A stretch of DNA of 64,000 bases from Paraburkholderia edwinii (GTDB lineage Bacteria; Pseudomonadota; Gammaproteobacteria; Burkholderiales; Burkholderiaceae): assembly GCF_019428685.1 (NCBI RefSeq), contig NZ_CP080096.1, positions 2,170,001 to 2,234,000 of the forward strand, read 5' to 3'. A model generated the notes under the pieces. It made no database searches, was not told where the DNA came from, and worked only from the letters and a program-made list of their open reading frames with translations. The translations under genes were made by a program, and so were the position numbers. Position 1 is the first letter of the stretch. Every line of letters begins with the position of its first letter. Shown here piece after piece: positions 59,983-63,040 of this stretch.

Positions 59983-60108
59983 GCGTGGTGTTGGAGATGG
60001 GGACGCGTTGGGTTGCGGGTTTGGTCATAGGCGGGTTTTTGCAGGTGTTTGGTAATTTGACATAAGATAAATTATCGATAAAAAGCGTGTAACGGCCATT
60101 TAGATGGA

Positions 60109-60121
60109 ATGGTCGCCTCCC
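60109..60121 (+). repeat. Left subterminal inverted repeat of element A
   Basis: ATGGTCGCCTCCC, the exact complement of 62840-62852. Confidence 0.85.
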
Positions 60122-60209
60122 GCCTTAACGGTCCGTCCGGCGCCGCAGTCCCGCGGCCAGCGCGTGCGACATTGCTGGTTCGGCAGTCCTGCCGCCAAGG
60201 AGAATCCAG

Positions 60210-61228
60210 ATGGAACCGACGACCATTGCGATCGACCTGGCCAAGCGCGTTTTCCAGATTCACTATGTCGAGCCTGAGACCGGTGCGATTCACAGCAAGG
60301 TCCTCAAACGCGCCCAGCTCGTGCCGTTCTTCGCCAACCGGCCTGCGAGTCGTGTCGTCATGGAAGCCTGCGGCAGCGCGCATCACTGGGCCCGGGTGCT
60401 GGCGCGGCTGGGCCACGACGTGCGGCTCATCGCAGCCCAGTTCGTGCGTCCGTTCGTGAAGTCGAACAAGAATGATGCAGCCGACGCAGCGGCGATCTGG
60501 GAAGCGGCCCAGCGTCCTGGCATGCGGTTCGTTGCCGTCAAGACCGAAGACCAGCAGGCCATGCTCGCGCTGCATCGCATACGCCAGCAACTGGTCCGGA
60601 TCGCGTCATGCAGATCAATCAGCTTCGCGGGTTGCTCTATGAGTTCGGCGTCGTGTTGCCGCAAGGCCGCCGGGCATCGATCGAGGCGGCCAAGGCCGCG
60701 CTGGCCTCGCTAGCCGAACAGTTACCAGCCATGCTGGCAGACAGCCTGCAGGATCAGGTTTCCCGGCTTCGAACGCTTGACGAGCAGATCACACGGATCG
60801 AGCAGCGCATTCTCGAATGGCGTCGCAACGATGATGCATGCAGACGCATCTCCGAAATCCCTGGCGTGGGTGTACTTACCGCGACAGCCGCCGTATCCGT
60901 CATCGGACAGGCAAAGGCGTTCCGCTCGGGGCGGGAATTCGCCGCCTATCTGGGCCTTGTGCCACGACAGAACGGCTCGGGCGGCAAGGTAAAGCTCGGT
61001 GGCATCAGCAAACGCGGCGACGTGTATCTGCGCACGCTGCTGATCCACGGCGCGAGATCGGTCATCTCGAGCTCGAAGCATTTGCCAGAGCGGTTGAAAC
61101 AGATGCTGTCCCGGCGTCCAACGAACGTCGTTGCTGTTGCACTCGCAAACAAGATGGCGCGAACAATCTGGGCGCTGCTGGCCCATGGCCGAACGTATGA
61201 AACAGCACCGTCGCACAGTCACGCATGA
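60210..61228 (+). pseudogene. IS110-family transposase with a single-base frameshift
   Basis: The N-terminal DEDD/RuvC-like part reads in frame from ATG 60210 (MEPTTIAIDLAKRVFQIHYV; Asp9, Glu52, Asp89, Asp92) to RQQLVRI near 60600. The homologous sequence then continues in another frame from MQINQLRGLLYEFG (60608) through the Transposase_20 part (ISEIPGVGVLTATAAVSVIG, GLVPRQNGSGGKVKLGGISK) to the stop at 61228. One base appears to be missing near CGGATCGCGTC. The intact copy in element B has RDRIAQINQIRG at the same place. It is a broken gene unless the base call is wrong. Confidence 0.88.
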
Positions 61229-61247
61229 AGGCCTTTAACCCATCCTC

Positions 61248-61372
61248 GGTTGCACAGGCGTATTGAACGATGGCAAGACAGGTTGGACCGCGCAAAGGCA
61301 AGCCTGAGACATTTCTCGGACTTCGAGTCCGTTATTTAGATTAGGACCTTTGCGGCGAAATCCATCGGGGCC
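61248..61372 (+). ncRNA. Candidate guide (bridge/seek) RNA of element A
   Basis: This 125-nt segment starts 20 nt after the transposase stop. It shares GGTTGCACA, ATGGCAA-ACAGGT-GGACCG and GGCGAAATCCAT-GGGGCC with the same-length segment in element B. Stems: CGATGG (61268-61273) / CCATCG (61362-61367); CGCAAAGG (61291-61298) / CCTTTGCG (61347-61354); CGGACT-TCG-AGTCCG hairpin (61317-61331). Element B has these stems at equivalent positions with different bases. In the IS1111 group the guide RNA is known to lie downstream of the transposase. That this segment is the RNA is inference. Confidence 0.65.
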
Positions 61373-61409
61373 GGCGGGCATGCCCGCGATCGAGTCCGGA
61401 TATAGTGGA

Positions 61410-61422
61410 ATGGCCTCGTCCC
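61410..61422 (+). repeat. Left subterminal inverted repeat of element B
   Basis: ATGGCCTCGTCCC, the exact complement of 62776-62788. It differs from the element A repeat at only a few positions (ATGG-C-C-TCCC kept). Confidence 0.85.
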
Positions 61423-61507
61423 ACCTCCGGTGAGTCAGTGAAATGACCTCCATCGAAGTGCATGGCAGTATGAACACTCCCTGACCCACCAATGAGCGGA
61501 GGCCGTC

Positions 61508-62524
61508 ATGAGCGTCGCGTTGCTGAGCATCGATCTGGCCAAGAACACCTTCCAGCTGTACGGCGTTGACCAGAGCGGCCACCCCGTATTGAGCCGGCGT
61601 GTCACCCGCAACAAGCTCCTGGAAGCCGTCGTTTGTTTGCCGCCCTGTCGCATTGTGATGGAAGCGTGTGGTGGAGCGCATCACTGGGCTCGGCGGTTCT
61701 CCGCAATGGGGCATCAGGTTCACATCATCGCCCCGCGATTCGTCAAGCCGTTCGTCAAATCCCAGAAGAACGACCGCAACGACGCGGAGGCGATTGTTGA
61801 AGCCGCATCTCGTCCGACCATGCGTTACGTCGCTATCAACAGCGTTGAGCAGCAAGACATCCAGTCGATGCACCGCATCCGTAGTTTGCTCATGAGAGAC
61901 CGCATCGCACAGATCAATCAGATTCGAGGCTTGCTGGCTGAATACGGCGTAGTTATTGCGCAAACGCCTCTAAAAGTCCGGATACAACTCCCAACGATTA
62001 TCGATGACGAGCGCAACGAGCTGACAGCACTGACGCGAACAATGATGCGCGACATGTACGAGCGCCTTGCACTGCTCGACAGGCAGATCGCACGGTATGA
62101 CGAGCTCATCCAGCAAGTGCACAAGGCATCGCCCACAAGCCAGCGACTGGAGAAGATCCGTGGTGTTGGACCGATGATCGCGACCGGCGTAATCGCCGCG
62201 GCCGGAAGCGCTTCCGAGTTCACAAACGGCCGGCAGTTTGCGGCCTGGCTTGGCTTGACGCCACGGCAGCACTCCTCGGGAGGCAAAGATCGTCTGTTCG
62301 GCATTACAAAGCGCGGTAACGGATACCTGCGAATGCTATTGGTACATGGCGCCCGATCGGTTGTTCAGCAAGCCGTGAGGCACACGGACAAACTCTCCCG
62401 ATGGATACTCGAGGTTCAGGCGCGACGCGGAACAAATGTCGCCGTCGTAGCACTCGCGAACAAGATTGCCAGAACGATCTGGGTGGTGCTTGCACGCGGT
62501 CAGGAGTATGCACCGCCGGTATGA
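61508..62524 (+). CDS. IS110-family transposase (IS1111 group), intact
   Basis: The 338-residue recombinase starts at ATG 61508 behind GCGGAGG. The N-terminal RuvC-like domain has the DEDD set Asp9, Glu52, Asp89 and Asp92 (SIDLAKNTF, MEACGGAHHW, KNDRNDAEA). The C-terminal Transposase_20 domain has LEKIRGVGPMIATGVIAAAG, then TPRQHSSGGKDR with the presumed catalytic Ser (256 or 257) and NGYLRMLLVHGARSV. IS110-family enzymes recombine DNA under the guidance of an element-encoded RNA that pairs with target and donor. All catalytic positions are kept, so element B may be mobile. Confidence 0.95.
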   Translation: MSVALLSIDLAKNTFQLYGVDQSGHPVLSRRVTRNKLLEAVVCLPPCRIVMEACGGAHHWARRFSAMGHQVHIIAPRFVKPFVKSQKNDRNDAEAIVEAASRPTMRYVAINSVEQQDIQSMHRIRSLLMRDRIAQINQIRGLLAEYGVVIAQTPLKVRIQLPTIIDDERNELTALTRTMMRDMYERLALLDRQIARYDELIQQVHKASPTSQRLEKIRGVGPMIATGVIAAAGSASEFTNGRQFAAWLGLTPRQHSSGGKDRLFGITKRGNGYLRMLLVHGARSVVQQAVRHTDKLSRWILEVQARRGTNVAVVALANKIARTIWVVLARGQEYAPPV

Positions 62525-62568
62525 GCGCGATCCCGATCACATCGTGGTCGTAGCTTCATCTCTTCATT

Positions 62569-62693
62569 GGTTGCACAAGTGATCTGATTCAATGGCAAAC
62601 AGGTCGGACCGTCGACGACAGAACCTGCGCGGACTTAGGGCTTTCGAAGCCGTGGATATATGAAGGCGTCGTCGGGCGAAATCCATTGGGGCC
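62569..62693 (+). ncRNA. Candidate guide (bridge/seek) RNA of element B
   Basis: This 125-nt segment starts 45 nt after the transposase stop and is the same length as the element A segment. Stems: CAATGG (62590-62595) / CCATTG (62683-62688); CGACGAC (62613-62619) / GTCGTCG (62668-62674), extended by a T-G wobble; GGCTT-TCG-AAGCC hairpin (62639-62651). Compared with element A, all three stems change on both sides so that pairing is kept. The unpaired parts between them differ, as expected for target- and donor-specific loops. Confidence 0.7.
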
Positions 62694-62775
62694 AGGCACA
62701 ACCCTGCCATCAACAGGCCGAATGTATATATGCAATCCAGCATCTGTTCGCTGTAGACCAGATCATTTGGCAAAC

Positions 62776-62788
62776 GGGACGAGGCCAT
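62776..62788 (+). repeat. Right subterminal inverted repeat of element B
   Basis: GGGACGAGGCCAT, the exact complement of 61410-61422. Confidence 0.85.
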
Positions 62789-62839
62789 GTATAAGTCCGC
62801 AACCACCCTCCTCGCCACTCACAAAAATGCCTTGCAAAT

Positions 62840-62852
62840 GGGAGGCGACCAT
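62840..62852 (+). repeat. Right subterminal inverted repeat of element A
   Basis: GGGAGGCGACCAT, the exact complement of 60109-60121. Confidence 0.85.
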
Positions 62853-62858
62853 ATAAGT

Positions 62859-62897
62859 AATGTCTGGTTTGGGCCAGTTAGAAATGTCCGGTTCGGG
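62859..62897. repeat. Short direct repeat, possible end of another IS
   Basis: AATGTCTGGTTTGGG (62859-62873) and AATGTCCGGTTCGGG (62883-62897) differ at two of 15 positions with a 24-bp period. Repeated ends of this kind resemble IS21-type termini, but no transposase remains beside it. Element A ends right next to it. Confidence 0.35.
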
Positions 62898-63040
62898 GCT
62901 CCGCGAGGCGCATGCTGTGGCGCGCGTACACGACGGAGTCTGTGATGAACGCGCGGATTGCTCGCTGAGGTCTCTCGCATAGTGCTTCGTAGCAAATGCG
63001 TGGACGAACACCGCGCGCCCCACAGTCGACGCAGGAACGC

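Follow-up and report, generated by a model that had tools for sequence, protein, structure and literature searches.

IS1111 seekRNAs carry their two target guides in a fixed order, T first and then B (PMC11187229). An 82-nt RNA sufficed for transposition of ISEc11, so donor guides may be dispensable (PMC11187229), and donor-binding nucleotides were predicted earlier, by inspection, for many IS1111 members (PMC11208160). The window analysed here, a 64,000-nucleotide stretch of the Paraburkholderia edwinii genome, very probably encodes the guide RNAs of an outer and a nested inner IS1111-type element, the latter inserted by its guides into a donor guide of the former. A literature search returned no report of an IS1111 element targeting the guide RNA of another, as judged by titles and the starts of abstracts, with most subscription papers and bioRxiv preprints outside the search.

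In the favored reading, each RNA would consist of a target loop (T guide, hairpin, B guide) and a donor part. The T guide would complement the top strand of the target to the right of the core, and the B guide would equal the top strand to the left of the core plus the core itself. The left donor guide would equal the element's right end plus core, and the right donor guide would probably complement its left end. We infer that the RNA is produced and acts in the way described for ISEc11 and IS621.

All features of the window described below lie on the forward strand. The outer IS1111-type element spans 60102–62855, which is 1365 bp once the inner element is subtracted, judged from its ends and the resulting lengths. 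Its sTIR are ATGGTCGCCTCCC / GGGAGGCGACCAT, with extensions of 7 bp on the left and 3 bp on the right, and its ends recur in relatives (e.g., L165, L167, L190). A frameshift divides the outer transposase (60210–61228) into two overlapping ORFs, one with the Pfam domain PF01548 (60210–60713) and one with PF02371 (60608–61228), the second of which also matches the NCBIfam IS110 RNA-guided transposase. The inner element occupies 61403–62791 (1389 bp; sTIR ATGGCCTCGTCCC / GGGACGAGGCCAT) and encodes a transposase of 338 aa in an intact single frame (61508–62524), with both PF01548 and PF02371 and a match to NF033542, the NCBIfam model for the IS110 family RNA-guided transposase. The same protein matches the TIGR-Tas RNA-guided endonuclease model weakly (31.5 bits, below the cut-off of 100). 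Its non-coding region 3′ of the transposase measures 270 nt, counting the stop codon. The traits of IS1111 are thus represented at this locus: PF01548 and PF02371 transposases (intact in the inner element, in two frames in the outer), sTIR with short extensions, and a long 3′ non-coding region.

The extensions of 7 bp on the left and 3 bp on the right were assumed when the ends were set, and they agree with the empty-site comparison. A reading of the DNA made beforehand from its letters (hereafter, the sequence-only reading) had placed the boundaries at 60102, 62855, 61403, and 62791, in exact agreement with the sTIR and the published 7-bp and 3-bp extensions. No target duplication is seen for the inner element, to which this comparison is confined: its joined flanks restore the empty target at 22 of 22 positions.

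To place the two elements among their relatives, 180 transposase hits were reduced to 114 by setting aside 45 without confident or complete ends and 21 duplicates, and then to 110 related elements with both ends by removing L174, L199, L172, and L045, whose ends were wrong; some doubtful ends, including those of L134, L206, L217, L030, and L046, are retained in the counts. Sixty representatives of the 110 share less than 80% identity in the non-coding region. The structure alignment contains 59 sequences because L177, whose T guide has a gap, was omitted. Relatives of the outer element insert mostly at AG(A/T)AATGTC-type repeats (12 loci), an observation that also concerns 62856–62900, just beyond the outer element. 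Frames adjoining three such loci (L167, L170, L180) match an ISNCY-family transposase model, one above the cut-off and two, both fragments, below it; since this holds for all three that were searched, the target looks like ISNCY ends.

Behind each transposase is a segment of exactly 125 nt, 61248–61372 in the outer element and 62569–62693 in the inner, and the two are identical at 71 of 125 positions with no gaps. The sequence-only reading had proposed that this equal pair shares three stems with compensatory changes. The stems are in place in the outer segment at 61268–61273/61362–61367 (CGATGG/CCATCG), 61291–61298/61347–61354 (CGCAAAGG/CCTTTGCG), and 61318–61330 (the terminal hairpin GGACT-TCG-AGTCC), and in the inner segment at 62590–62595/62683–62688 (CAATGG/CCATTG), 62613–62619/62668–62674 (CGACGAC/GTCGTCG), and 62639–62651 (the terminal hairpin GGCTT-TCG-AAGCC). 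They correspond to helices 2, 4, and 7 of the structure alignment, which are 91.5%, 89.3%, and 100% paired across the 59 relatives.

We took the structure to be tested from the inner element and compared its pair counts on the 59 aligned relatives with 500 shuffles. Paired cells amount to 86.1%, as against 67.6% in the shuffles (0/500 reach the observed value), and 425 cells are changed on both sides, as against 141.2 (0/500). Double changes occur in 29 of 37 pairs (24.6 shuffled, 4/500 reach). Covariation is 0.502 (0.170 shuffled, 0/500 reach), and sliding the partners yields at most 0.142, a control over which the structure is somewhat favored because it comes from one of the aligned sequences. 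The wider alignment therefore upholds the conserved pairing first noticed in two sequences. Two further helices, P8 (columns 159–162 with 199–202; 96% paired) and P1 (columns 1–6 with 215–220; 89% paired), run beyond the 125-nt segments, so the RNA should extend about 45 nt past the segment end; P7 is paired in just 50% of cells. The segments lie inside the RNA as had been proposed, but the RNA is longer than they are. By homology, the predicted inner guide RNA covers about 170 nt (62569–62738), made up of the second 125-nt segment, the 3′ strand of P8, the left donor guide, and the 3′ strand of P1. The 5′ part of the outer guide RNA gene, placed by the alignment of relatives, runs from 61248 to 61402, includes the first segment, and ends at the insertion point.

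RNAalifold, run unaided on the 59-sequence alignment, returned 20 pairs, 15 of them with double changes, which include P4, P5 (in part), P6, and P8; P1, P2, P3, and P7 are absent from its prediction, and its pairing of columns 143–145 with 214–216 clashes with part of P1. Single-sequence folding was dropped as proof of structure, as the energies are no better than those of dinucleotide shuffles for the 125-nt segments (z −0.58 and +0.84) and no better than shuffles for the 170-nt inner RNA (z +0.73), and the structure is for this reason argued from covariation. An Rfam search of the window gave no match at the gathering score. Shuffle-level energies and the lack of an Rfam match are what one would expect if the segments were simply conserved 3′ DNA, such as an attenuator or an mRNA tail, with no guide RNAs involved. 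We regard that explanation as highly improbable, because the loop columns covary base by base with the flanking target DNA, and do so in the order published for IS1111 seekRNAs.

This covariation emerged when, across the 60 representatives, every RNA column was compared with the DNA of the flanks and ends of its own element. Seven columns on the 3′ side of the terminal hairpin, assigned to the B guide, track the top strand of the target from LF-5 to RF+2 along one diagonal (z 5.8–9.4), and the best value off the guide registers in the flank comparison is 4.6. Columns 5′ of the hairpin, assigned to the T guide, track the complement of the right flank with z up to 7.0, a signal smeared by gaps. 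The T match lies 5′ of the B match, and both reach the insertion point. The B guide matches its own site at a mean of 5.2 of 7 positions and the sites of other elements at 1.98; 37 of 60 match at 6 or 7 positions and 15 of 60 at 3 or fewer, some of these from doubtful ends. For the T guide, at the best placement of 8 nt, the mean is 6.88 of 8 compared with 4.27 at other sites, and 42 of 60 match at 7 or 8. In 51 disjoint pairs of sisters the B guide changed at 82 positions, of which 46 match in both sisters and 36 do not, compared with a mean of 5% and a best of 15% in control windows; it stayed the same at 275 positions, and at 52 of these the target changed.

The guides of the two elements in the window fit their own flanks. 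The inner T guide GCGGACTTA (RNA GCGGACUUA; 62629–62637) complements the right flank TAAGTCCGC at 9/9 positions, and the inner B guide GGATATA (RNA GGAUAUA; 62654–62660) equals left flank plus core, GGATA|TA, at 7/7. In the outer element, where the registers are taken from the RNA–DNA covariation, the complement AGAAATGTCT of the T guide AGACATTTCT (61307–61316) agrees with the right flank AGTAATGTCT at 9/10, and the B guide TATTTAG (61333–61339) agrees with left flank plus core, CATTT|AG, at 6/7. Position, structural covariation, and guide–DNA covariation all argue that the segments are parts of IS1111 guide RNAs, as the sequence-only reading had proposed. Its further suggestion that the variable loops hold both target and donor guides applies to the target guides, T on the 5′ and B on the 3′ side of the terminal hairpin; the donor guides appear to lie elsewhere.

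A third stretch, the box GGCCGGATATA..GCARCC just 3′ of the 125-nt segment, tracks the right end of its own element (RE-5 to RE-2, z 6.7–9.6) and the core (RF+1 z 9.6, RF+2 z 8.0, LE+1 z 7.2). Because ends and RNAs share ancestry, the background in element-end comparisons is high, with off-register donor values reaching about 8 across the 60 representatives, and RE-5 to RE-2 alone would for that reason not convince. Without six alphaproteobacterial-type rows, the remaining 54 give 8.1 at RE-5, 7.0 at RE-3, and 9.0 at RE-2, with no signal at RE-4 and RE-1, and the core values rise to 10.8 and 8.7; off-register values then go up to 7.0, and up to 7.8 at places where a guide position is mirrored by the inverted repeat. 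Over all 60 representatives, 54 match at 6 or 7 of 7 positions and six match at none. These six are the alphaproteobacterial-type rows (L079, L030, L032, L035, L040, L046), and all of them match 7/7 after a one-base shift. Of the changes in this box between sisters, 9 of 10 match in both; at 347 positions the box stayed the same, and the end or core changed at 11 of these. These comparisons support a left donor guide in IS1111 RNAs. In the inner element it lies, together with the P1 3′ strand, at 62720–62738 (GAATGTATATATGCAATCC) and includes ATGTA|TA, the element's own right end plus core. In the outer element it is severed by the inner one: the left part TCCGGATA is at 61395–61402, and the right part with the P1 3′ strand, TAAGTCCGCAACC, is shifted by 1389 bp to 62792–62804. 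The uncut box in relatives of the outer element reads GAGTCCGGATATAAGTCCGCAACC.

For the right donor guide, too, the likely site is outside the loops, in the conserved GCGAAATCCAT segment, although the support is weak. This conserved segment (GCGGATTCCATC) tracks the left end (LE+6 z 4.9, LE+7 z 5.8), which suggests a right donor guide there. It doubles as the 3′ strand of P2. In the 54 rows its values are 6.1 and 6.1, with off-register values up to 7.0, and we keep it as a candidate because it does not rise above background. The outer candidate, GCGAAATCCATC at 61355–61366, complements the left-end extension GATGGAAT with one mismatch and covaries weakly with LE+6/+7; the inner candidate, GCGAAATCCATT at 62676–62687, is likewise weakly supported.

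The box 3′ of the segment might instead be a DNA site, for instance an internal transposase binding site that resembles the right end, targeted as a DNA repeat and external to the RNA. The box does resemble the right end, the background of donor covariation is high, ISEc11 moved with an 82-nt RNA in the work described (PMC11187229), and RNAalifold and the inner-derived structure disagree at the 3′ edge of the box. Helices nevertheless span both edges: P8 crosses the 5′ edge, with columns 161/200 and 162/199 changed on both sides in 16 and 8 sequences, and P1 crosses the 3′ edge, with double changes in 4 of 6 pairs. In addition, the box tracks the core dinucleotide in the adjoining target (RF+1 z 9.6, RF+2 z 8.0), and where sisters differ in the box, 9 of the 10 changes track end or core in both members. 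We therefore consider the DNA site unlikely and treat the box as a putative left donor guide within the RNA.

With the box read in this way, the relation between the two elements in the window becomes specific. The inner T and B guides, which share the core, match the outer left donor guide at 14/14 positions, and the joined flanks of the inner element equal the uninterrupted donor-guide box of the outer relative L207 at 22/22. The insertion, at GGATA|TA, splits the outer RNA gene, so that half of the left donor guide and the P1 3′ strand are separated from the remainder. The target guides of the inner element spell out the sequence of the left donor guide found in other IS1111 RNAs, and the inner complex would therefore have inserted there. 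That the target of one element is the donor guide of the other is absent from the sequence-only reading, which nonetheless gave the element boundaries.

The location is characteristic of the inner lineage. We searched for exact occurrences of the left-end pattern alone, taking no account of the flanks (copies lacking the exact left end are uncounted), and found 11 places in 398 family genomes and 13 in 144 genus genomes, 18 of which are distinct. All 18 left ends are preceded by CGGATA (17) or CGCATA (1), and they have 15 distinct 60-nt upstreams, some of them close. An automated guide-RNA motif lies beside 16 of the 18 left ends; for one of them, L228, it falls elsewhere in the same RNA. Of the two without the motif, L219 has two transposase pieces and an IS1111 RNA that can be recognized by eye, and L233 stands behind the right end of another IS1111 that already occupies the box. 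On the sequence evidence, all 18 left ends lie at a donor-guide box, one of them behind an element already inside. The transposase upstream is full-length in a single frame in 6 of 18 (L223, L226, L231, L235, L236, L233; four distinct sites), that of L233 belonging to the neighboring element; it is broken or partial in 10, and in 2 (L220, L224) none was found in the 1500 bases examined. The ten lineage elements with both ends share the same insertion point (10/10); their B guides match at 7/7 in nine and 6/7 in one, and their T guides at 9/9 in two, with 8 matches in six and 6 in the remaining two.

Examples outside the 18, excluded because their upstreams read as L232 and L233, are on Paraburkholderia phymatum pBPHY02 and on a P. 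sabiae plasmid, where two IS1111-type elements stand side by side in one box. In L238, on the P. sabiae plasmid, and in L233, three IS110-annotated transposases occur in a row, and an L198-type and an inner-type element share one donor-guide box.

Recurrence at one place could also stem from a single old nested insertion that spread through recombination between outer elements. This genome contains two nested copies with no mismatch across 1727 bp, a stretch flanked in the outer sequence by 8 differences on either side, and three copies in G036 share a common 60-nt upstream, as that history would predict. The 15 distinct 60-nt upstreams, even if some are close (L221, L222), the different outer transposases, and inner proteins that are 73–100% identical across genomes of three genera make it a decidedly improbable account of the lineage as a whole, and we return to guided insertion at the box as the preferred one. 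The second nested copy, L005 (G000:C1, reverse strand), has an identical inner element and lacks the left part of the outer one; its 1727 bp of identity to the window, with the differences confined to the outer sequence on either side, suggests recombination between two outer copies. In L009, L010, and L011, on three contigs, outer and inner sequences are identical over the compared left stretch, and L010 and L011 are flanked by what look like copies of a single repeat, which diverge only further out. Joint movement, recombination, and repeated insertion fit such repeated nested copies within one genome alike.

Other lineages may use the same kind of site. The target sites of the 110 elements were scanned against the donor-guide boxes of the others, with one shuffle per site as a null (at most 16/22). 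Twelve sites exceed the null: ten of the inner lineage, L159 (21/22, GCCGGAT|AGATTTG), and L198 (18/22, AAGGT|CGAATATAG); L176, of the L198 type, scored 16/22, no better than the null. The guides of L159 and of the L198 type agree in part with these box sites. Since the sites exceed the null and the guides agree in part, two further lineages appear to target donor-guide boxes, in other registers and at one or two sites each.

The donor-guide box of the inner lineage departs from the site that its guides specify. Its own box is CCGAATGTATATATGC or a near variant, and its ends read ATGTA|TA, with GAGTA|TA in one copy; because both box and ends differ from the guide-specified site, GGATATAAGTCCGC, its box is unfit for its own target guides. 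Self-insertion by the inner lineage was set aside on this ground, its own donor guide CCGAATGTATATATGC differing from GGATATAAGTCCGC. The differing left donor guide should spare the inner element from itself, and if a donor guide must match the end of its own element, this protection would follow.

How the nesting arose can be outlined from these parts. The inner transposase–RNA complex would insert the element at GGATA|TA in a fixed orientation and without target duplication, and the insertion would leave the outer RNA gene without its 3′ part. Because an 82-nt RNA sufficed in ISEc11, severing the donor guide may do no harm. A more speculative reading, which we hold to be somewhat less than even in probability, is that some IS1111 lineages are specialized predators of their own family: their guide RNAs would be directed at the donor guide of other IS1111 RNAs, insertion would split the guide RNA of the victim and disable or take over its mobility, and the predator's ends and donor guide, being different, would protect it from itself. 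If that were true, the target would be one that victims could hardly change, as their donor guide must match their own ends, and up to three lineages with different target registers would be involved, one at many sites and two at one or two each.

The locus offers a natural case of one RNA-guided recombinase inserted into the guide RNA gene of another. A left donor guide in IS1111 RNAs, earlier a prediction from inspection, now has the backing of covariation, and whether IS1111 donor guides are needed becomes directly testable, given the many natural elements in which the left one has been split.

Compared with the systems described to date, the elements resemble the seekRNA-bearing IS1111 members ISEc11, ISPa11, ISKpn4, and ISPst6 (PMC11187229) in the 3′ non-coding region, the sTIR, and the 7-bp left extension, and also in the lack of target duplication, a T guide 5′ of the B guide, and target bases that flank the insertion point. 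They differ from ISEc11, ISPa11, ISKpn4, and ISPst6 in the target, for which that source gives, for example, REP and attC sequences (PMC11187229) and which is here the guide RNA gene of another IS1111. As in the IS621 bridge RNA and the predicted RNAs of the IS1111 group (ISPa11 among the six inspected; PMC11208160), the guide loops share the core. In IS621 the left guide precedes the right in each loop (PMC11208160), whereas in the present elements the right-side guide leads and the RNA lies downstream. With respect to the predictions in PMC11208160, the left donor guide is here backed by covariation across 60 representatives. A mobile element as target has precedents in the same literature, in IS4321/IS5075, which use the inverted repeats of the Tn21 family, and in ISEc21, which uses IS3-family transposase genes (PMC11187229). 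The targets of those elements are an inverted repeat or a protein-coding gene as described there (PMC11187229), whereas the target here would be the donor guide in the RNA of a related element.
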